The notes: generated by a model from the sequence alone, not told the origin. DNA of 59,504 nucleotides from Ignavibacteriota bacterium (GCA_016218065.1 JACRFA010000195.1:1-59504); one strand, 5' to 3'; counted from the stretch's first letter, positions 40,991 through 52,620 are shown. Translations and numbers: made by a program.

Positions 40991-41857
40991 TCACTCGCGA
41001 AGTTGGTCAGTGTCTCGTTGCGGCAATCGATCGACGGCAACTAAAATGCCGTGCAACAATGCTTCAGGGCGCGGTGGGCAACCCGGAATGTACACATCAA
41101 CAGGAACAACGGTGTCAACGCCGCCGCATGAAGCGTAGCTGCTGCCAAAAACTCCGCCTCCAATGGCGCACGCTCCCACAGCAACAACGAGCATTGGCTT
41201 CGGCGTTGCTTCGTATGTTTGTCGCAGTGCAAGCTCCATATTGCGAGTAACGGGTCCGGTCACCACAAGCATGTCTGCGTGGCGCGGAGAGGCAACGAAG
41301 TGGACGCCGAAACGTTCGATGTCATAGATCGGATTATTCAAGGCGGTAATCTCCACTTCGCAGCCATTGCAAGAACCAGCGTCCACCTCTCTGATATGGA
41401 GTGAGCGCCCGAACAGCCGTCGAATCTTTTCTTTCAGCTTCGCTCCGATTTCGTCGAGGGTTTCATTGTCGGAAGGCGTATGAGAAATCATCCCGGAAAC
41501 CTCGAACGTTCCCTTCTCATCGAGCTTGTATCGCGCACGAGTGAGCAATGCGGATTTATCCGTCGTCGCGAGTTGAAACTCCTTTGTCATACGAATCCCA
41601 TCAGGACATGCTGCCTCACATTCACCACAGAAAATGCAGTGTCCCAAGTCGAGCGAGAGCGTCCTTTCAGTGTGAGATACAACCGCGAGCGTGATTGCAT
41701 CGGTGGGGCATGCATCTGCGCAGGCGTCGCATCCGGTGCATCGCGCAAAGTCGATCTCCGGCTTCCCTCGAAATCCTTCAGCAGGTTCAGTCACGACTGC
41801 GGGGAAGGAGTTCGTGACAACGCCGGTTCGTATCGATTGTCTAAGAATCTTGAACAT
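40991..41857 (-). CDS. Ferredoxin-NuoB-like fusion subunit of Hyf/Ehr-type complex
   Basis: Two 4Fe-4S motifs 'CTGCDACADACPTDA','CIFCGECEAACPDGI' then 'EVDAGSCNGCEVEITAL..GACAIGGGVFGSSYASCGGVDTVVPVDVYIPGCPPRPEALLHGI'. Confidence 0.9.
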   Translation of the reverse strand: MFKILRQSIRTGVVTNSFPAVVTEPAEGFRGKPEIDFARCTGCDACADACPTDAITLAVVSHTERTLSLDLGHCIFCGECEAACPDGIRMTKEFQLATTDKSALLTRARYKLDEKGTFEVSGMISHTPSDNETLDEIGAKLKEKIRRLFGRSLHIREVDAGSCNGCEVEITALNNPIYDIERFGVHFVASPRHADMLVVTGPVTRNMELALRQTYEATPKPMLVVAVGACAIGGGVFGSSYASCGGVDTVVPVDVYIPGCPPRPEALLHGILVAVDRLPQRDTDQLRE

Positions 41858-41865
41858 GATGTGTT

Positions 41866-43452
41866 CTATCGATCATTCCCGGAATACGACAGATTGAAGC
41901 TCTTATTGATCACCGGAAAATCCGGTACAATGTTATTCAGCACGGCGACCTTCAATGCGCGCCAGTTGTGGAATGAAGGATCGGTGATCTTCCAACGATA
42001 AATCTTTCCGTGTTCGTCCAGCATAATCCAGTGAACGATTTCTCCGCGCCAACCCTCAACGTAGCCGAGCGCGTGTCCGCTGGCTTCACGATATTCCGAT
42101 GTCGCCGCAATTGATCCGTGATCGTATTGGCGGTGAAGCTGCTCAAGGATGTTGAATGATTCGCGAACTTCATCTATGCGAACATTCATGCGTGCAAGTA
42201 CGTCACCCTCTTCGTGCTGCGCCACCTTGAATTGAAGATGAGGATATGAGCAATGGGGATGATCCTGTCGGAAGTCCCTGGCGATGCCCGACGCTCTTCC
42301 GGCAATGCCTACGATACCGAGACGGTACGCATCCTTGTGCGAAAGAACTCCTGTTGTCTCGAGCCGATCGATCGCGGTAGAAGCCGACATTGCGAGGTCA
42401 ATGAAGCTATTAAACTCCACTCGCCCCGTTGCGAGTTCGGCATGCAGCGCGTTCCATTGCGACTTGTTCGGATAACGACGCAATCCTCCAATCGCAGCCA
42501 TCCCCCGCAACAATCTGCTGCCGGTGAGCATCTCATTCAACTGCATGAATCGCTCTTTCAATTGAAACGCCATTGCTGCACCGACAGAGAATCCCACGTC
42601 AAGAAAGATCGATCCAATATCACTGACATGGTTGTAGAGACGTTCAAGCTCAAGGAGCGTCGTTCGGAGAACAAGCGCACGCGCGGAAATCTCTCGTGCA
42701 CATATTCTTTCTATAGCATGACAGAACGCGAGCGCATGTGCAAAAGTAGAATCACCCGAAATGCGTTCTGCAAGCCACAGCGCCCGCTGCGGAGTCAGCC
42801 CTTCGGCAATCTTCTCCGTCCCCTTGTGTGTGTAGAACAACTGCGCGTCGAGATTGATGATCGGCTCACCGGCGACACTGAACCGGAAATGCCCCGGCTC
42901 GATGATACCCGCATGCACCGGACCGACAGGAATCTCGAACACACCTTCTCCTTCCACATGCCGGAAGTCAAACGTTCCCTTCACACGAGGAATAGTCTGC
43001 CGCGGATTAAATTCCTTCGCCATGGGATACACTTCTTCGGGCCAATCAGGATGGACAGCAAGCTTGCGGATGTTCGGAAATGCAATGATGCCAAACCAAT
43101 CTTTCATTTCCCTCTCAAACCAATCAGCCGCTTCGATCGATGAGCTGATGGAAGGAACCTCGCGATGCTGAGCATCCACCGAGACGCGGAGAATAATAAA
43201 GAGATCGTCAGCGGGCAACGAGAAGATATAGTATAACGAGAAGAGACCACGAATGGATTGCTCGTCATTCGCGATGATTGTTACGAACTGCCCCCTAAGT
43301 GATTTTGTAAGAAGAGAACAGACGTCGGGCAATTTCGACAGGGCTTTGGGCTTCAACGCAAGATAAAGTTCGTTGGGCGCGGCTGATAACTCCTCGGTGA
43401 GGATCTCTCCTAATGCGTTGCGAAGCAGATGTATGTATTCTTGCTTTTTCAC
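41866..43452 (-). CDS. NuoC/NuoD-like (HyfG/HycE-like) large subunit lacking NiFe cysteine ligands
   Basis: Position equivalent to RVCGxCGFAH reads ERISGDSTFAH; C-terminus 'SFNLSYSGNDR' lacks DPCxxC. Confidence 0.88.
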   Translation of the reverse strand: MKKQEYIHLLRNALGEILTEELSAAPNELYLALKPKALSKLPDVCSLLTKSLRGQFVTIIANDEQSIRGLFSLYYIFSLPADDLFIILRVSVDAQHREVPSISSSIEAADWFEREMKDWFGIIAFPNIRKLAVHPDWPEEVYPMAKEFNPRQTIPRVKGTFDFRHVEGEGVFEIPVGPVHAGIIEPGHFRFSVAGEPIINLDAQLFYTHKGTEKIAEGLTPQRALWLAERISGDSTFAHALAFCHAIERICAREISARALVLRTTLLELERLYNHVSDIGSIFLDVGFSVGAAMAFQLKERFMQLNEMLTGSRLLRGMAAIGGLRRYPNKSQWNALHAELATGRVEFNSFIDLAMSASTAIDRLETTGVLSHKDAYRLGIVGIAGRASGIARDFRQDHPHCSYPHLQFKVAQHEEGDVLARMNVRIDEVRESFNILEQLHRQYDHGSIAATSEYREASGHALGYVEGWRGEIVHWIMLDEHGKIYRWKITDPSFHNWRALKVAVLNNIVPDFPVINKSFNLSYSGNDR

Positions 43453-43455
43453 TCC

Positions 43456-44928
43456 CTACCCTTGCACAATGGCAACCGCCTGACGAATGAAGTTCGAAAG
43501 AAACGAAGGGATCGCTATCCCTAACAAAAACAAAATTGCCACGAGAGCGCCGATCAGAATGAGCGAGAAGGCGTCTCCATCCCCTTCATCGATACGGCGA
43601 TGCGGCTCGCCGAAGACCATCTGCGTTGCATAATAGATAAAGCCAACGAAGATTGTCGCGACCACCCCGATGAACACAAGACTTGGGAAAATGTTTCCGG
43701 CGGCAAACCCGGCAGTCACGATCGTAAACTCACTCACGAACACACCAAACGGGGGCCAGCCCGTAATGGCGAACACGCCAACAATGAGCAGAGTTGCGCT
43801 CACGGGAATGACCTTGATTGCTCCGCTCACGCGTCGCATGATTTTCGAATCGTACGCGAGCCGAACGTTTCCCAGCGTCAGAAACAGGACGAGCTTTGCG
43901 AGCGCGTTGTTCAGGATGTGAAGCAGCGCGCCGAAGTAAGCAAGCGGGGTTCCCAGCCCAAACGCGAACACGATGATTCCGACATGTTCAACGCTCGAGT
44001 ACGCAAGCAGCCGTTTGAAATCCCGCTGAACAAGAATGAACGGAACCGCGATGACCATCGACAAAAGCCCGAAGATGACAAACAATGTCGGCGCGAAGCC
44101 CACCGCCACTGCCTTGTTCACGAGAATGTAAAAGCGCAGCAACGAATAGAGAGCAACATTCACCAAACCTGCCGCCATGAGGGCGCTAATCGGCGCCGGG
44201 GCTTCGCCGTATGCATCGGGCTTCCATGTGTGCATCGGGGCGAGACCCGCCTTCGTGCCAAAGCCAACGAGCGCAAAGACGAACGCGAGCTTCAGTATGT
44301 CGGGGTTGAGCTGGTTCGCGACCGCAATGAGCGATGTCCAATTCAGCGCGGTACTTTGTGAAGAGACCACGTGCAACGCTGAGAAGTACGTGAGGATGAT
44401 GCCGAACAACGCAAGACCAATTCCCACCGAACAGATAATCACGTACTTCCATGCCGCTTCGATTGAGCTTTCTCTCTCATAGTATGCAACGAGAAACGCC
44501 GTTGCAAGCGTTGTGGACTCGCTCCCAATCCATAAGAATCCAAGATTGTTCGAGATGAGAACCAACAACATCGTGAAGAGAAAAATGTTGAGCAGCATAT
44601 AATACAGTCGCAGCATTTTCGCATCGACTTTGCGGTTCACAATCTGACGGCGGAGATAGCCGATGGAATAAACTGAAACGACAAATGCACTGCCAGTCAC
44701 GATCAGCATGATGTACGCTGAGAGTGCGTCGAGGAAGAACCAGCCCTTCGGCGTGATGAGGGAAGTGCCGCGCAGAACCGCTGCGGAAAGCAAGAGTGCG
44801 CCAACAAATGTCAACGCTGTGCTGAAAAGTGTTATCGCTTCAAGCAGCGTCCGCCGTTTGAGGAATGCGCAGAGAATTCCTGATAAGAGCGGAAGACCAA
44901 GCAGAAGGGAAAAGTACAGAGTGCTCAA
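43456..44928 (-). CDS. Proton-translocating NADH-quinone oxidoreductase/Mrp-like antiporter subunit (HyfF-like)
   Basis: 490 aa polytopic; 'FGTKAGLAPMHTWKPDAYGEAPAPISALMAAGLVNVALYSLLRF'. Confidence 0.9.
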   Translation of the reverse strand: MSTLYFSLLLGLPLLSGILCAFLKRRTLLEAITLFSTALTFVGALLLSAAVLRGTSLITPKGWFFLDALSAYIMLIVTGSAFVVSVYSIGYLRRQIVNRKVDAKMLRLYYMLLNIFLFTMLLVLISNNLGFLWIGSESTTLATAFLVAYYERESSIEAAWKYVIICSVGIGLALFGIILTYFSALHVVSSQSTALNWTSLIAVANQLNPDILKLAFVFALVGFGTKAGLAPMHTWKPDAYGEAPAPISALMAAGLVNVALYSLLRFYILVNKAVAVGFAPTLFVIFGLLSMVIAVPFILVQRDFKRLLAYSSVEHVGIIVFAFGLGTPLAYFGALLHILNNALAKLVLFLTLGNVRLAYDSKIMRRVSGAIKVIPVSATLLIVGVFAITGWPPFGVFVSEFTIVTAGFAAGNIFPSLVFIGVVATIFVGFIYYATQMVFGEPHRRIDEGDGDAFSLILIGALVAILFLLGIAIPSFLSNFIRQAVAIVQG

Positions 44929-45596
44929 TCCTTCAACCTCCTCAGTGTGTCCACGCTGACCGTGTCGAAGGTTTCGTTGATGCGGAAAACAAAGACGCCC
45001 AGAATGAGCGCCGCTACGAGGATGTCAAAGAATATCCCGATCTCCACAATGAGCGGCATGCCGTACGTGATCGAAAGTCCGGAGAGAAACAGCCCGTTCT
45101 CCAACGTCAGGAGTCCGACGATCTGACTCACCGCCTGTTTGCGCGCGAGCATGATGAACAGCCCGATCATCATCATGGCGATGGACTCTGGCAATACCTT
45201 CGAGACGGGAAGCGCGTGCATCACTTGCGCATCGATAATCGGCTTGCCCACGGAGTCGGCGAGAATGACGAGCAGACCGCACACAAGCAGCGATGTGGTG
45301 ATGTTGAGATTGAATTCGATCTCTTTGTGTACTTTGATGCGGTCGATGATCTTGTTCAACACATACGGAATCGCGATTGCCTTCACGCCAATCGTCAGTA
45401 CTGCGGCAACGAGAATGTGAAACTCTCCGAACCCGGTGGCGACGACGACGGCAACCAATCCGAGCAGGAATGACTGCACACTGAATAATCGGACATAGAA
45501 CAGCAAGCTGCGACTGGAGACAATAAGGAACGCGGTCACCAAGATCGCCACGGCGAGAATTTCTAAACTGAGGTTGATGGATTGCGCATCGAACAT
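44925..45596 (-). CDS. HyfE/NuoK-like membrane subunit
   Basis: 223 aa polytopic, 'QIVGLLTLENGLFLSGLSITYGMPLIVEIGIFFDILVAALILGVFVFRI'. Confidence 0.87.
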   Translation of the reverse strand: MFDAQSINLSLEILAVAILVTAFLIVSSRSLLFYVRLFSVQSFLLGLVAVVVATGFGEFHILVAAVLTIGVKAIAIPYVLNKIIDRIKVHKEIEFNLNITTSLLVCGLLVILADSVGKPIIDAQVMHALPVSKVLPESIAMMMIGLFIMLARKQAVSQIVGLLTLENGLFLSGLSITYGMPLIVEIGIFFDILVAALILGVFVFRINETFDTVSVDTLRRLKD

Positions 45597-45601
45597 GGCG
45601 A

Positions 45602-46558
45602 CTACGATCCGATGATGAAGTAAAGAATTAGCGCGAGCAACGAAAGAACGAACGCCACCATCAGAAGCTCAGGCACACGGAATAATCTGAGCTTCGCATT
45701 GCTCGATTCAACAAGAGCGACGAGTATCGCAAGGATGCTGACCTTGACAATGAACGCACCCAATCCGATCGCCAGCGCCACGAATGAAAACGAGGTCGCT
45801 ATCCCCAGCGGCATGAACATGTTTGCTATCAACGCCATGAACACGAACAGCTTCATTTGCGATGCCCACTCGATGCAGGCGAGGTAGCGACCGGAGTATT
45901 CCAGAATCATCGCTTCATGGATCATCGTCAGTTCGAGATGCGTTGCCGGATTGTCCACCGGAATCCGTCCGGTCTCAGCAATCGTGACAATGAAGAGTCC
46001 GACGAACGCGAGTAAGTGGGAAGGATGAATGATGGAAACCGGCGTGAACGAAAGGCGGCTGACGATGATACTCAGATCTGTTGAGCCAGCCGTGACGGCA
46101 ACGGTAAACACCGCCAGCATCATCGCCGGTTCGATAATGGAGGCGAGGGACATTTCGCGACTCGATCCAAGTCCGCCGAATGCAGTGCCGGTATCCAATC
46201 CCGCGAGCGCCACGAAGAACCTCCCGACTGCGAACAAATAAATCACGGTAATGATATCACCGATCCAGTGGAATGGAACTGGAGTAGCAATCGTCGGGAC
46301 GAGCAACGCGATTGCAAGCGTGGAGCCGAACACAATGTACGGCGTGAAGCGAAATATCCACGACGCGGTCGAGGGGAGAACCACTTCCTTCTTGAAGAGT
46401 TTTGTCAGATCGTAATACGGCTGTACGACACTCGCACCGCGCCGGTTCTGCAACCGAGCTTTCGTCTTGCGAATGATGCCGGTCGCCAATGGCGCGAGAA
46501 GAAGAACCACGAGAAGTTGCAGGATCGAGACGACGGCTGTGTACACAAACTCGCTCAT
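45602..46558 (-). CDS. NuoH/HycD-like membrane subunit
   Basis: 318 aa; 'GIIRKTKARLQNRRGASVVQPYYDLTKLFKKE', 'ETGRIPVDNPATHLELTMIHEAMILEYSGR'. Confidence 0.92.
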   Translation of the reverse strand: MSEFVYTAVVSILQLLVVLLLAPLATGIIRKTKARLQNRRGASVVQPYYDLTKLFKKEVVLPSTASWIFRFTPYIVFGSTLAIALLVPTIATPVPFHWIGDIITVIYLFAVGRFFVALAGLDTGTAFGGLGSSREMSLASIIEPAMMLAVFTVAVTAGSTDLSIIVSRLSFTPVSIIHPSHLLAFVGLFIVTIAETGRIPVDNPATHLELTMIHEAMILEYSGRYLACIEWASQMKLFVFMALIANMFMPLGIATSFSFVALAIGLGAFIVKVSILAILVALVESSNAKLRLFRVPELLMVAFVLSLLALILYFIIGS

Positions 46559-48645
46559 CGGGCAAACATCAAAAGTAAGATCAACGCGATGAACATATAC
46601 AAGAGATATGACTGAAGATGACCTGTCTGAATCCGGCGAATGAATTTTGCCGCAGCGACCACACCGCTGCGCATCGGCTCGTAGAAATATTTCTCAAAAA
46701 CGGATTCCGTCTCCAACTCATACCGAAGTTGCTGTTTGAAGAACGGTGAAGCCGCCTCCGAGATTTCGATCTCATGCGTTGCATGAAAGATGTTTGAGAA
46801 GATCATGCGAATCGGCTTGCTGAAGCCCGTGGCAGTGTACTGCATACGCGGCTCAACTTTCTCCAACCCGCAAGCCCACACCATAGCAGCTCGTTTCTGC
46901 AATTTCCCTCCGAGGAGCAAACCGAGAACAAGCGGCAGTACAGTCAACGCAACAAGAAAGATCACCAAAGTCAGCGGAGAAACGCCGCCCGCACCGCTTT
47001 GCGGAATTGTCAGGCTCCCCAAGTTCAGAACTTCAAGCGCCGATGCGCTCCCGCCAAGAAGGAATGTCGTGACCGGTGTAAGGATGGAAATCATCGAACC
47101 GGGAAAAACACCGAGGAGGATGCAAGCGAAGGCAAGCACTCCCATGGGAACGAGCATGGACCGCGGCGGCTCATGTGCGTGCTCTGCGTGCGACGACCGC
47201 GGCAAGCCAAGAAACGTGATGCCGAATGCTTTCACGAAACATGCCGCTGCGAGCGCGCCTGTCAGCGCAAGCAGCGCGACGGCAATCGGAATCGCGACAC
47301 GAACGCTCAGATCGGAAATATTGAAGCCCAGCAGCAAGGCTTGGAACGTTAGCCACTCACTCACAAATCCATTGAGCGGCGGAAGAGCAGAAATCGCCAG
47401 TGCGCCAATGAGAAAGAATGCCGACGTCCATGGAAGCTTCTTTACGAGTCCGCCCAGCTCCTCGATATTCCGCGTGTGCGTTGCAGAGACGACGGAACCG
47501 GCGCCGAGAAAAAGCAATCCTTTGAACATCGCATGGTTCAACACGTGATACAGTCCGGCAATCAAGGCTACTGTTGCGAGCGGCATATTTCCATACGACA
47601 TGAATATCATTGCTGCCCCGACGCCCATCAAAATGATGCCGATGTTCTCGATGCTGTGAAACGCGAGCAGGCGTTTGAGGTCGTGCTCCATCAATGCATA
47701 CAGAACACCAAGAACAGCAGAGGCAACTGCGACTGCAAGAACTACTATCCCCCACCACGCCGGACCCGGTGCAAGGAAGTCAAAGTACACTCGTACCATT
47801 CCATAAATGCCAGTCTTGATCATAACGCCGGACATCAACGCCGAGACATTGCTTGGCGCCGCAGGGTGAGCCTCAGGGAGCCAAATGTGAAAGGGAACGA
47901 CGCCGGACTTTATTCCAAATCCGATGAGAGCGCAGAAAAAGATCAGTGTCTTGATGGATGATGGGAGTTGCGCGCTTGAATTCCGGAACGACTGAAAGTC
48001 AAAAGAGTGAGCGGTTCCCGCGAGGAGAAGAAACATCACAATCAAAAACGCAGTCCCGATATGCGTCATGACGATGTACAAGATCGCAGCCTTGCGCGAT
48101 GCGCGCTGTTCGTGTTCGTAGTTGATGAGAAAGAATGTCGTGAGCGACATCAGCTCCCACACGATCAGAAAGAGAACCGCATTCCCCGCAATGACAACAA
48201 TCGACATGGAGAGGAGAAACAGATTGTAGAGGACGACCAAGAGACTGAGATTCTTTCGTCCGGCGTACTCTCCGCTGTACCCGAATGAGTACACGGACAC
48301 GACGGCTCCCAGCAAAGAGATCACGCCCAGAAAAAACGCCGCCAGCGGATCCACATTTATTGAGAGAGAACCAAATGGAAGCGTCTGTTGCAAGTCCAGA
48401 TGCAAGGCGCTGCCGGTCGTGAGAACAGACATCGAAAGGAAGAGGCCGGACAACGAAGCCAACAACGCGGCGCCAAACCCGAAATACCTGACGAACAGGA
48501 AAGACTGTTGCGAGGTGTTGCCTTCAGATGTATTGGTTCTTGAGAAAGGTTTACGATCTCGTAACGGTGCGATTAGAATTGCGAGAACATACCCTCCGAC
48601 CAACAGATGGAATGCCATGAACTGGAGGGATGGCAAATCAAGCAT
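46555..48645 (-). CDS. HyfB/NuoL-like proton-translocating subunit
   Basis: 696 aa; 'IGFGIKSGVVPFHIWLPEAHPAAPSNVSALMSGVMIKTGIYGMVRV'. Confidence 0.92.
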   Translation of the reverse strand: MLDLPSLQFMAFHLLVGGYVLAILIAPLRDRKPFSRTNTSEGNTSQQSFLFVRYFGFGAALLASLSGLFLSMSVLTTGSALHLDLQQTLPFGSLSINVDPLAAFFLGVISLLGAVVSVYSFGYSGEYAGRKNLSLLVVLYNLFLLSMSIVVIAGNAVLFLIVWELMSLTTFFLINYEHEQRASRKAAILYIVMTHIGTAFLIVMFLLLAGTAHSFDFQSFRNSSAQLPSSIKTLIFFCALIGFGIKSGVVPFHIWLPEAHPAAPSNVSALMSGVMIKTGIYGMVRVYFDFLAPGPAWWGIVVLAVAVASAVLGVLYALMEHDLKRLLAFHSIENIGIILMGVGAAMIFMSYGNMPLATVALIAGLYHVLNHAMFKGLLFLGAGSVVSATHTRNIEELGGLVKKLPWTSAFFLIGALAISALPPLNGFVSEWLTFQALLLGFNISDLSVRVAIPIAVALLALTGALAAACFVKAFGITFLGLPRSSHAEHAHEPPRSMLVPMGVLAFACILLGVFPGSMISILTPVTTFLLGGSASALEVLNLGSLTIPQSGAGGVSPLTLVIFLVALTVLPLVLGLLLGGKLQKRAAMVWACGLEKVEPRMQYTATGFSKPIRMIFSNIFHATHEIEISEAASPFFKQQLRYELETESVFEKYFYEPMRSGVVAAAKFIRRIQTGHLQSYLLYMFIALILLLMFAR

Positions 48646-48732
48646 GCAAGACTCATAATTTTCACAATCAATATACGTCGCCGGGCAAGAACTATCAAAT
48701 CATTCCATTCATAGAACCATCGCTTGACTTCA

Positions 48733-51168
48733 TCAGAACCTGTAACCGACTCCACCGCTGATGCTCCAGTACTTTGGCCGCTCAAAGCTCGTGCGATAGT
48801 TGCCGTCGATTCCTGAGACTTGAGTGACCGGGTACATGAAGAGACCGCCAAAGTCGAGAAAGAGTGAATAGGTGAAAGGGATTTCGATTCCGGCTGCGAT
48901 GTGCGCGCCCAAGACGAGACTACCCTTGACGCTGGTCCAGCGCGCCTCAACGTTGAGCGCCGCAATACCGGCGCCGACATAGTACGTCCAATCTTTCAAC
49001 CCAAAATGAATCGGGAAATTCCAACGGACGAGCGCAGTGAAGTAACGTCCGATGACGTCGTACGTCACGCCGCCGGCTGTGTCGCGCTTGCCGAAGTTGT
49101 AGAGCGCCGAGATTTCATATTGTCGTGGAGAGTCAAGAAAGATCATTGATGCCTCCACGCCGACCTGATGATCGTTGCCCAGATAGAGCTTTCCTGACCC
49201 GAAGGTGAAACCCATTGCCGACGCACGCACGCGAACAGCGTGGTTGTACGGCTGAAACTCAATGACCTGAGCCTGCTGTTCTTGCAGCGAATCGGACGCG
49301 GCCACGCCGGATGACCACTGCCGCAGCATGCGTGAAGTGAGCGATCGAAATGTGTCGTTGAGATTATCGATGTGCGTGATGTCGGCTTCATCGGCAATCG
49401 TCGAATCAAAAGGATTCGACAAATGGTAGAGCGCCGAGTGCAGTCGTCGTGTACTGCCAAAGTCATCAAGCCAGAGCACCCACGCGAACTGAACATCCAG
49501 ATCCCTTTGCAAAGAATCAGAAGAGCAACAACGCTCACACGTCGCGTAGTAATCAAGTCTGTCTTCGAGAGGAATCACCAGCAGCTTTTTGTTGAGACTA
49601 AGACGCTTTGCCAGCGAGCGGGCAAGTCCGAGAGATACATTTGTGTTTTCCTGCGAGCGTGGGAACGGCGGAGCGGCGATAACCGCAACAGTCGCAGGTC
49701 GGTCTGGAATTCTGATCCGCCTGCTCGAAGAATCTGAAGGGAAAGTGGCGCCGGCCCCCAGCTTGGATGAATCTTCTTCAATGCAATCGATCAATCGGTC
49801 GACAAGCATGTTCATTCCTACGAAGTCTTGCCTGAAGCTGTCTGCAAAAACTTGTTGAAGAGATCCTGTCTCAGCATCGACCACATGCACCGACATCTGA
49901 AACAGGCGTTGAGGTCGTTCGAGTTTGATCATCCAGAGGAACTGAGTATTGAGTCCCCTTGCCATTACCACTGGCTCTGTTTCATGCTCGACGTATTCCT
50001 CAACGAGTCTGGCATTCGTTGAAACAGCGATGTTCATCCGTGGATGATGAGCGAGAATGTCCTTCAGTCGTCGCGTCGTGACAGTGACAATTTCCAGCGA
50101 CAACGATTTGTTTTCGGCGGTTGGCGGGAACGGAGGAAGCGCCGCGACAGAAATTCGCGTTGGCGGGACTTTTTTCTTGACCGCGTCATTCAGCTCAATC
50201 GCGTTGCGCATGTCGTCGCCAAGCGCAATGAGCGCATCGTACAGTCTTCGACCGCCGAGTGAATCCACAAAAAGCGACTTACTGAGAATCGAATGCCCGG
50301 ACTCGACATCGACATGCGACGCCTCGATACTCATCGTCCCCTTTTGCGCAAAGTAGCTTCCGCCAATCACGTATTTGGCGCCTTCACGCAGGCCAAGCTC
50401 AGGGAGTGTCCAGCCGCGAAATCGATTTGCTGCGCCTCTGCCTGCGGCAGACACGTAGGCTGAATCCGACATGATAACGCGGATGCGCGGTGAAACGCTC
50501 AAACGGTTTCTAAGCATCGATGCAATCATTCCTCCGAGCTTCTCGAACGCAGGATCGTCTCCATAGCTGAGAAACGGAGCGATGAGTACGCGGAGACTTG
50601 AATCGTATTTCGCTTCGATCTGTGAAACGATGTCCGCCGCAAGATAGTCTGCTAATCGTCGTTCCATCGCGGCGGCTGCGTCATACGTAGCTTCGACGTG
50701 GATGCGCTGGTCGAGCATGACCGTATCCCTTCTGCCTTTGGAATTCTTCTGAAGCGTGGCGATTCGCGCATAGAGGACGGCGTTAGCAATCACGATACGG
50801 TCGAGGTTGGTGAGCGTCACAATCAAGTAGAAGTGGTTTGTATCCGGCAACCCGGCTAGCGAGGTCCCCAGCGCGAAGAGTTTCTTCTGTGCAAGCTCGC
50901 GTGTCCGCGGTAATGCGTGAAGAAAGGACTCGCTTGCTTCGACAGCAACAAGGTCGAGAGTATTCGAAGCCTCCAGATGTCTCACGAGATCATCGCGAAA
51001 ATCGACAAAAGCATTCCTCCCGATGATGAGTTGGCCGGACTCATCCATGAACTCCATCCAACCGACAACAATGCTCTTTCCGTTTTGAGCATTGCTCATT
51101 CCCCCCGAGAGGAAGAGAAGTAAAAATGCAAGCACACGATTGTAGGATGCTATCGTTCTGATCTGCAT
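48733..51168 (-). CDS. Hypothetical secreted protein with tandem TolB/CsgG-like nucleotide-fold segments and C-terminal outer-membrane beta-barrel-like region
   Basis: Signal peptide; repeated 'RVLIAPFLSYGDDPAFEKLGGMIASMLRNRLS', 'ISVAALPPFPPTAENKSLSLEIVTVTTRRL', 'AVIAAPPFPRSQENTNVSLGLARSLAKRL'; last ~170 aa alternating beta pattern ending YRF. Confidence 0.55.
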   Translation of the reverse strand: MQIRTIASYNRVLAFLLLFLSGGMSNAQNGKSIVVGWMEFMDESGQLIIGRNAFVDFRDDLVRHLEASNTLDLVAVEASESFLHALPRTRELAQKKLFALGTSLAGLPDTNHFYLIVTLTNLDRIVIANAVLYARIATLQKNSKGRRDTVMLDQRIHVEATYDAAAAMERRLADYLAADIVSQIEAKYDSSLRVLIAPFLSYGDDPAFEKLGGMIASMLRNRLSVSPRIRVIMSDSAYVSAAGRGAANRFRGWTLPELGLREGAKYVIGGSYFAQKGTMSIEASHVDVESGHSILSKSLFVDSLGGRRLYDALIALGDDMRNAIELNDAVKKKVPPTRISVAALPPFPPTAENKSLSLEIVTVTTRRLKDILAHHPRMNIAVSTNARLVEEYVEHETEPVVMARGLNTQFLWMIKLERPQRLFQMSVHVVDAETGSLQQVFADSFRQDFVGMNMLVDRLIDCIEEDSSKLGAGATFPSDSSSRRIRIPDRPATVAVIAAPPFPRSQENTNVSLGLARSLAKRLSLNKKLLVIPLEDRLDYYATCERCCSSDSLQRDLDVQFAWVLWLDDFGSTRRLHSALYHLSNPFDSTIADEADITHIDNLNDTFRSLTSRMLRQWSSGVAASDSLQEQQAQVIEFQPYNHAVRVRASAMGFTFGSGKLYLGNDHQVGVEASMIFLDSPRQYEISALYNFGKRDTAGGVTYDVIGRYFTALVRWNFPIHFGLKDWTYYVGAGIAALNVEARWTSVKGSLVLGAHIAAGIEIPFTYSLFLDFGGLFMYPVTQVSGIDGNYRTSFERPKYWSISGGVGYRF

Positions 51169-51206: not shown

Positions 51207-52349
51207 TCAGTGCGCAACGCACGCGACGGGTACAGACACTGTCCCGTCGGTGTCAAACGCAATCGGGTGTTCCTTCGAACACGTCAAGCCGTAGCCTGAT
51301 TCAGTCTTGAATCGCAGCGAGACAACAATCTTGTATTCACCTTCGGGCAACCTGACTATCAGGTCACTCGCATTCCAGTGCAACGGCGAAGCGACATCCT
51401 GCCCATTGCGATCGACCAATCGGATGGATTGCTTGACAAGTCGGGCGTGTGCGTGCAGCGGGTTAGGAGTAAGTGTGAGCCGGATTCTTTTCGTAACGAC
51501 AACCGGAATCTTCGTCAGCGTTGCGATGACCGGGCCAGGCAAATGGACATACATCACGACCGGATGAAATCCCGCCTTGCTGATCGAGAGCCGAACGCTA
51601 TCTCCCTGTTTTCCTTTCACATTACCGAAACGAAACTCCCCAAGTTGTGAGACCGCGGTAACGTCTCCGCGTTCTCCGAGACTGACGAGGGCGTCGTCCA
51701 CGAACATTCCCTTCGCGTCTTGAATGCGTCCTAGAAGCTCCTGAGTCGCCGGAATCGGGACGGGGGATGGCGGCCAATAGATGTATGCGATAACCGCGAT
51801 AATGCTGGCGGCAAGCAACGGCCACAAAACGCTACGTCTTCGTCGGGGAAGCCATCCCTGTTTTTCAAATTCCTGGCGTGCATCAGCAACTGCTCGAACG
51901 CTTTTCCCTTCGTCGTCCTGCAATGCACTCAACGTCTCGATGACCGCTGCTTGGCGCGAGCCATCCGCCGGCGAACTGATTTCCGCAAGTCGTTCAACAA
52001 TTCTCGCCACTGCATCGTTGGGGTCATTGAATGCGATTCCCTGCTTTGCGCGAAGAATCAGTGGCAGCGGCGTGTCATCGAGTAGCACAGGCATGATCGG
52101 CTTCTTCAGAGCGATGCACGTCGTCCATTCCAACTCTATCGGTTCGGAGATCGATGCCGCCTTTGACCAGAGAAGCAACACACAATCGTTCTCGGCAATC
52201 CCTTCCCCGATCGCTCTTGGCCATGCTTCGCCGGGCAGAATGCTCTCGCCGTCGCGCCAGACGAGCACGCCTTTCTCTTTTAGTTGCGCGACAATGAGCG
52301 TCGCTGTCGCGGTGTCGTGATGTGAGTAGCTGATGAAAACCGTTGGCAT
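51207..52349 (-). CDS. TIR domain - TM - carboxypeptidase-regulatory-like domain protein
   Basis: 'MPTVFISYSHHDTATATLIVAQLKEKGVLVWRDGESILPGEAWPRAIGEGIAENDCVLLLWSKAASISEPIELEWTTCIALKKPIMPVLLDD'; TM 'VLWPLLAASIIAVIAYIYW'; beta-rich tail. Confidence 0.85.
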   Translation of the reverse strand: MPTVFISYSHHDTATATLIVAQLKEKGVLVWRDGESILPGEAWPRAIGEGIAENDCVLLLWSKAASISEPIELEWTTCIALKKPIMPVLLDDTPLPLILRAKQGIAFNDPNDAVARIVERLAEISSPADGSRQAAVIETLSALQDDEGKSVRAVADARQEFEKQGWLPRRRRSVLWPLLAASIIAVIAYIYWPPSPVPIPATQELLGRIQDAKGMFVDDALVSLGERGDVTAVSQLGEFRFGNVKGKQGDSVRLSISKAGFHPVVMYVHLPGPVIATLTKIPVVVTKRIRLTLTPNPLHAHARLVKQSIRLVDRNGQDVASPLHWNASDLIVRLPEGEYKIVVSLRFKTESGYGLTCSKEHPIAFDTDGTVSVPVACVAH

Positions 52350-52620
52350 GATGGCTCCACGTTGTGGTTCATGTTCGGCATTCAGGCGAACGTCAGGTTG
52401 CACGATCAAAGAACAATTCGTGATGCGAGAGTGATGGTACGTGTCGAGCGAAGGATGCTGGTCGTCAGGTAACTATCGTGGAAGGTTATCGGCGGCCTGC
52501 CCGAGCGAGTGTTTGTGAACGGGCTGCGCAAATATACAAAGGAATTGGCGGCAGTGTCAATCTCCGGTACGAACAAAATGCAACAAGTTTTTCGCGGGCT
52601 GGCGAATCCTGTAAGAAAAT

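Follow-up and report, generated by a model that had tools for sequence, protein, structure and literature searches.

Complexes of the energy-converting-hydrogenase-related (Ehr) type contain a subunit set like that of group 4 [NiFe] hydrogenases without the ligands of the NiFe site; they are suspected to translocate ions, and their function is unassigned (PMC6349859, PMC10284858, PMC12342949, PMC7304191). A complex of this appearance is encoded in a DNA stretch of 59,504 nucleotides from an Ignavibacteriota bacterium (GCA_016218065.1, JACRFA010000195.1:1-59504; the whole stretch is called the window here), where six open reading frames in the order hyfB-C-E-F-G-(H-I), overlapping or separated by a few bases, occupy positions 40991-48645 of the minus strand (Table 1). 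This order and the presence of four membrane subunits had been proposed in a preliminary description made from the sequence alone, and family scans bore out the membrane subunits. As in Ehr complexes, the large subunit is of the group 4 type and has no CxxC motifs for NiFe, and antiporter-like, NuoH-like and HyfE-like subunits are encoded alongside the small and large subunits; the fused HyfH-HyfI protein and the HyfBCEFGI order differ from Ehr. Matched on these published family features, the operon is very probably of the Ehr type, and the complex fits that type and adds a member to it rather than a new kind. What is new lies at the family level, where, judged from the sequences, the chain of iron-sulfur clusters (the electron wire) is lost recurrently, by way of the distal cluster, the proximal cluster or the whole ferredoxin domain. 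The comparison suggests that the lasting job of the complex is to move ions and not to make hydrogen.

The loss of the [NiFe] site is seen in an alignment of the window HyfG with HycE of the Escherichia coli formate hydrogenlyase (FHL; PDB 7z0s_E), in which RVCGICGFAH becomes RISGDSTFAH and SLDPCYSCTDR becomes SFNLSYSGNDR, as the preliminary description had read them, and none of the four [NiFe] cysteine positions holds a cysteine (CGIC to SGDS, CYSC to SYSG). The 32-residue C-terminal tail of E. coli HycE and HyfG is missing as well, leaving nothing to cleave; both marks of group 4 [NiFe] hydrogenases, four metal-binding cysteines and a tail removed during maturation, are thus absent, the tail being a weak criterion because cysteine-bearing Planctomycete relatives also lack it. 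The fold is kept, since the AlphaFold2 model of HyfG (pTM 0.91) has HycE as its closest solved structure (TM 0.93). In FHL, the HycE loop glutamate E193, equivalent to E185 of the window protein, exchanges protons with a NiFe cysteine (PMC9474812). E185 and H239 are found in 87/87 cysteine-less homologues, D234 in 86/87 and S232 in 80/87, followed by R469 (86/86), S522 (84/84) and G525 (84/84), and the canopy aspartate is mostly asparagine (79/84). Since the replacement residues are near-fixed, the ghost site appears to be maintained and not decayed, and sequence comparison confirms that neither sequence error nor decay accounts for the missing ligands. The segment NKSFNLSYSG is common to the window HyfG and a Nitrospirota relative (L083).

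Scanning the genome collection yielded 80 relatives, spread over Ignavibacteria, Verrucomicrobiota, Acidobacteriota, Omnitrophota, Planctomycetota and Nitrospirota. The Planctomycete/Brocadia set (loci L027, L031, L036, L039, L042, L043, L054, L080, L082 and L084) resembles the window operon in gene order, in a large subunit that is 43-45% identical, in its IxEP loop and in a KSF.L.YS.TD C-terminus, but unlike the window it retains all four NiFe cysteines in CGVC and CYSC (RICGVCAASH and ELCYSCTDL), and its HyfI is often found behind an extra gap or gene. In unrooted trees of the large subunit (57 sequences, and 51 without long rows), one branch separates the cysteine-less proteins from the cysteine-bearing ones, with support of 97/92, or 99/96 without the long rows, among which L164 and L165 are possibly misplaced; the NiFe ligands therefore need only one change of state. 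The Ehr-like character given in the preliminary description, which a position inside the bona fide hydrogenases would contradict, is supported by this split and by the conserved ligand loss. Close copies of the operon occur in 12/80 genomes of the order of the window organism and in neither of two sampled congeners, a patchy presence that marks it as accessory.

The pump residues of the window HyfB (E164, K246, K277, H367, H371, K375 and E430), the glutamate-channel (E-channel) residues of HyfC (Y107, R113, E135, E143 and E195) and the HyfF residues E137, K226, H337, K345 and E400 are all retained, with Asn257 of HyfF at the TM8 lysine position just as in E. coli HyfF, and the membrane arm is likewise retained in nearly every row compared, Allomeiothermus silvanus included. 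These residues indicate that ion translocation is quite probably retained, which agrees with the ion-pumping complex first proposed. The window complex resembles E. coli Hyc/Hyf in fold, subunit types, E-channel and the HyfB TM12 glutamate, and differs in having no [NiFe] cysteines, canopy aspartate, C-terminal tail, HyfA/HycB or HyfD, and no formate dehydrogenase or maturation genes beside the operon. The absence of maturation genes, noted earlier, holds for the window region and is uninformative, because the genome encodes hypD and four cysteine-type [NiFe] large subunits elsewhere, together with two complex I NuoD genes.

The electron wire is complete in the window, where HyfH-HyfI has 12/12 iron-sulfur ligand cysteines, for two ferredoxin-type clusters and the proximal cluster, as the preliminary description of a ferredoxin-NuoB fusion with intact cysteines had it. 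The names N6a and N6b follow complex I homology, the distal cluster being bound by the first three cysteines of motif 1 and the last of motif 2. Among the cysteine-less relatives, every sampled member of the Verrucomicrobiota and Acidobacteriota lacks this distal cluster (4/4 ligands replaced, W-A-A-S/D), and so do L149-L151, A. silvanus and Mycobacterium branderi; L133, closely related to the window, has lost half of it (2/4 ligands). All four proximal cysteines are lost in A. silvanus (TDES) and M. branderi (NDDA), and the ferredoxin domain is missing from Proteobacterial and Rhodococcus copies; no CxxCxxCxxxC motif was found within about 10 kb of either group, and rescue by a separate ferredoxin gene was rejected on that ground. 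In four Acidobacterial loci, a gene that is not part of the operon contains two ferredoxin motifs. By parsimony, the HyfG tree requires at least six state changes for the distal cluster (four without the long rows) and at least two for the proximal cluster; no cluster is lost among the cysteine-bearing relatives. A. silvanus, its proximal cluster gone, keeps the pump residues EKKHHKE (HyfB), YREEE (HyfC) and EKNHKE (HyfF). Its plasmid pMESIL01 holds two near-identical cluster-stripped operon copies (L159 and L163), each with an ArsR regulator upstream.

Related NiFe-less operons, in the order C-E-F-G-I-B, lie behind fluoride riboswitches in four plasmid loci of M. branderi, Caballeronia sp. 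SBC1, Burkholderia multivorans and B. cenocepacia, all recovered with cysteine-less queries, so that the sample says nothing on generality. The riboswitches score 41-56 bits (gathering 34) and precede the operons by 110-360 bases, the one in Mycobacterium being followed first by one small gene. All NiFe cysteines are missing from the large subunits in 4/4 loci, one of these subunits being annotated as a nickel-dependent hydrogenase, and the surrounding islands variously hold crcB, CLC, pyrophosphatase, enolase, DUF190 and phosphatases. Formate hydrogen lyase is listed among crcB-motif genes by Weinberg et al. (PMC2864571) and was interpreted as fermentation in a 2024 review, which also connects fluoride stress with acidification and with Na+/H+ antiport (PMC11139923). 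A search of the window, its genome and 93 other loci found no further riboswitch, only L164, L165, L170 and L171 being positive, and control of the window operon by such a switch was rejected accordingly.

The explanation preferred here, at a probability of roughly 0.48, is that of an Ehr-type, FHL-shaped complex that has given up H2 chemistry, can do without redox drive and translocates ions for pH and anion homeostasis; for the optional redox drive at family level together with the homeostatic role, the odds are about even. Besides the near-invariant ghost residues and the repeated wire losses, it draws on the fluoride islands and on the SulP, PtsN-like IIA or ArsR genes found next to many other copies. 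Such a complex would descend from a [NiFe] hydrogenase, and its conserved job would be the translocation of H+ (or Na+/H+). Where the active site used to be, the pocket (the E185 loop, D234, H239, R469 and S522) would change in protonation and shape, and these changes would be relayed via the HyfC glutamate channel to the antiporter-like subunits HyfB and HyfF. Where the wire is intact, as in the window, reduced ferredoxin may still drive the complex, its electrons reaching some acceptor by way of N6a, N6b and then the proximal cluster; lineages without the wire would have to rely on an ion gradient as the driving force. Because the wire was cut several times independently and the operon retained, a redox partner may be dispensable for the conserved function. 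Of the interpretation first offered, the Ehr-like and ion-pumping parts are supported, and a redox partner is a possibility, the wire being intact in the window but cut in relatives. Several points weigh against this explanation: all iron-sulfur ligands are retained in the window protein and its nearest relatives, which argues that the wire is still selected in that lineage; both losses of the proximal cluster are single species on long branches, of which M. branderi also has a partly changed E-channel and A. silvanus a shorter HyfB; and the fluoride link appears lineage-specific, since no riboswitch occurs in the clade or genome of the window. A stronger form, in which NiFe-less Hyf/Ehr complexes are a non-redox branch of the complex I superfamily and ghost-pocket-gated translocators of H+ or other ions for homeostasis of pH and toxic anions, including fluoride, is doubtful, and so, in equal measure, is its corollary that the riboswitch-linked "formate hydrogenlyase" is at least partly such a complex and no fermentation enzyme.

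For the window copy, with its complete wire, the serious rival is a ferredoxin-driven redox pump like MBS or complex I, possible rather than probable, in which electrons from ferredoxin would travel along three [4Fe-4S] clusters and reduce a small molecule held by the ghost pocket, the energy being used to pump ions. All 12 cluster ligands are present not only in the window but in nearly all other Ignavibacteria-type copies, in Omnitrophota and in 3/4 fluoride-linked loci, E185 and R469 are retained, and Pyrococcus MBS, likewise a complex I relative that has lost its NiFe ligands, is a precedent for the reduction of another substrate (PMC7684303). MBS, however, keeps 2/4 NiFe cysteines and has a proximal-cluster loop, described in the same work, that is three residues shorter and has a non-Cys Fe site, and the window complex has neither; its loop GSCNGCE aligns without gaps to that of MbhJ, and an MBS-type sulfur reductase was rejected. 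Complex I shares homologues of NuoB, C, D, H, K and L/M/N and the loss of the redox-site cysteines, but the window complex has no NADH module, its proximal cluster is of the hydrogenase CxxC type, and the quinone-binding His38 and Tyr87 (Nqo4 numbering) are replaced by I184 and G233 in HyfG, so that a quinone reductase was rejected too. The predominance of asparagine at the canopy position also tells against a redox pump, and as a function shared by the family it is opposed by loss of the wire in at least four lineages.

Uptake of inorganic carbon or anions, in the manner of DAB/MpsAB, is unlikely. Proton-motive force would act through the antiporter-like subunits to drive CO2 hydration, or the complex would cooperate with SulP; DAB/MpsAB is indeed the precedent for a NuoL-like subunit that functions without redox chemistry, powering CO2 hydration in DAB2 (PMC13144422), but the window operon has a far larger subunit set and no DabA/MpsB, and family scans found no DabA-like carbonic-anhydrase subunit among its proteins. 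SulP adjoins the operon in about ten loci, where it precedes hyfB (several Acidobacteria, one locus of Opitutaceae) or follows HyfI (two loci), and is fused to IIA within three Ignavibacteria-type operons, whose SulP matches BicA best; two relatives have SulP-IIA beside a putative acyl-CoA carboxylase gene, named from sequence. Most loci, however, have no SulP, the window genome encodes its SulP-IIA away from the operon, Acidobacterial SulP scores nearer to DauA than to BicA, and the neighbouring genes that were inspected included no carbonic anhydrase, no systematic search having been made. SulP as an obligate partner is further weakened by the many complex-free genomes with SulP-IIA, where it stands beside an mnmA-like gene. 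A decaying or marginal relic with no selected function, to which the patchy distribution would be suited, is more improbable still, given six intact reading frames and pocket and pump residues that are near-invariant across phyla. That the operon encodes a bona fide [NiFe] hydrogenase altered by sequencing or assembly error has a negligible chance: architecture and fold match FHL and the genome has hypD, but identical substitutions recur in 87 sequences, there is no cleavable tail, and the cysteine-less proteins branch apart; a hydrogenase with missing maturation was rejected on account of hypD and the other [NiFe] large subunits.

The map of kept and lost redox centres makes the function of Ehr complexes, open in several published surveys, a testable choice. 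If the wire-less members are functional, some of the complex I superfamily operates without electron flow, a point of consequence for the coupling of electron transfer to ion pumping and for the origin of complex I from hydrogenases. NiFe-less subunits in all four riboswitch loci likewise suggest rereading the "formate hydrogen lyase" of the fluoride regulon, and fluoride offers an assayable condition.

Table 1. Features of the window operon and fluoride riboswitches of related loci
Feature	Position	Strand	Remarks
hyfB-like	46555..48645	minus	696 aa, antiporter-like, NuoL/M type; NF005086 (hydrogenase 4 subunit B) above cut-off, PF00361
hyfC-like	45602..46558	minus	318 aa, NuoH-type anchor; PF00146; aligns to 7z0s_D
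hyfE-like	44925..45596	minus	223 aa, NuoK-like; PF00420, NF008556 (hydrogenase 4 membrane subunit), each under cut-off
hyfF-like	43456..44928	minus	490 aa, second antiporter-like subunit; NF005044 family; TTG start behind GAGGAGG site
hyfG-like large subunit	41866..43452	minus	528 aa, NuoC-NuoD type without [NiFe] ligands; PF00346 and PF00329
hyfH-hyfI fusion	40991..41857	minus	288 aa, 2x[4Fe-4S] ferredoxin domain and NuoB-like subunit; family scans
Putative sigma-70-like promoter, TTGATA-17-TATATT	48670..48698	minus	Spans 25-53 bases before hyfB start; 10/12 matches, consensus match only
E185, beta1-beta2 loop glutamate	42898..42900	minus	HycE E193 equivalent, retained without NiFe site
Ghost N-terminal site RISGDSTFAH	42736..42765	minus	HyfG residues 230-239
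Ghost C-terminal site SFNLSYSGNDR	41869..41901	minus	HyfG residues 518-528; protein ends there
Eight ferredoxin-type cysteines	41606..41740	minus	C40, C43, C46, C84 (N6a-like); C50, C74, C77, C80 (N6b-like)
Proximal-cluster cysteines	41078..41371	minus	C163, C166, C230, C260; loop as long as that of MbhJ, unlike MBS
Fluoride riboswitches	L164:3863-3933, L165:3600-3673, L170:2971-3041, L171:2858-2928		Before NiFe-less operons

The neighbours of the window operon include genes for MacAB-type efflux, arranged as an operon and named from sequence, as well as a two-component pair of the sigma-54 type. Neither a redox partner nor a maturation gene turned up in this vicinity, and an Rfam scan of the window returned no RNA at threshold. 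A protein of 811 amino acids (48733-51168) that matches no Pfam family is encoded near a gene (51207-52409, minus strand) for a TIR_2-domain protein whose C-terminal region has no assigned role. In relatives, an ArsR regulator adjoins the operon in many Acidobacteriota, some Omnitrophota and A. silvanus, and a PtsN-like IIA gene does so in several Verrucomicrobiota and in L135, L149-L152 and L154; directly upstream of the operon in L150 (2317-3135) lies a fusion of HTH and PTS EIIA_2 domains, possibly a phospho-regulated transcription factor. The SulP-STAS-PtsN(IIA) fusion transporter (G000:C277, at L097:5470-7641; L142; L146) has an mnmA-like gene beside it in relatives, two of which are those with the putative acyl-CoA carboxylase gene. 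A second hyfB-like gene stands in tandem in the operons L047, L060, L062, L079 and L136, and several Verrucomicrobia (e.g. L011, L013, L019, L020 and L026) have an extra hyfF-like gene, perhaps for a third pump subunit.

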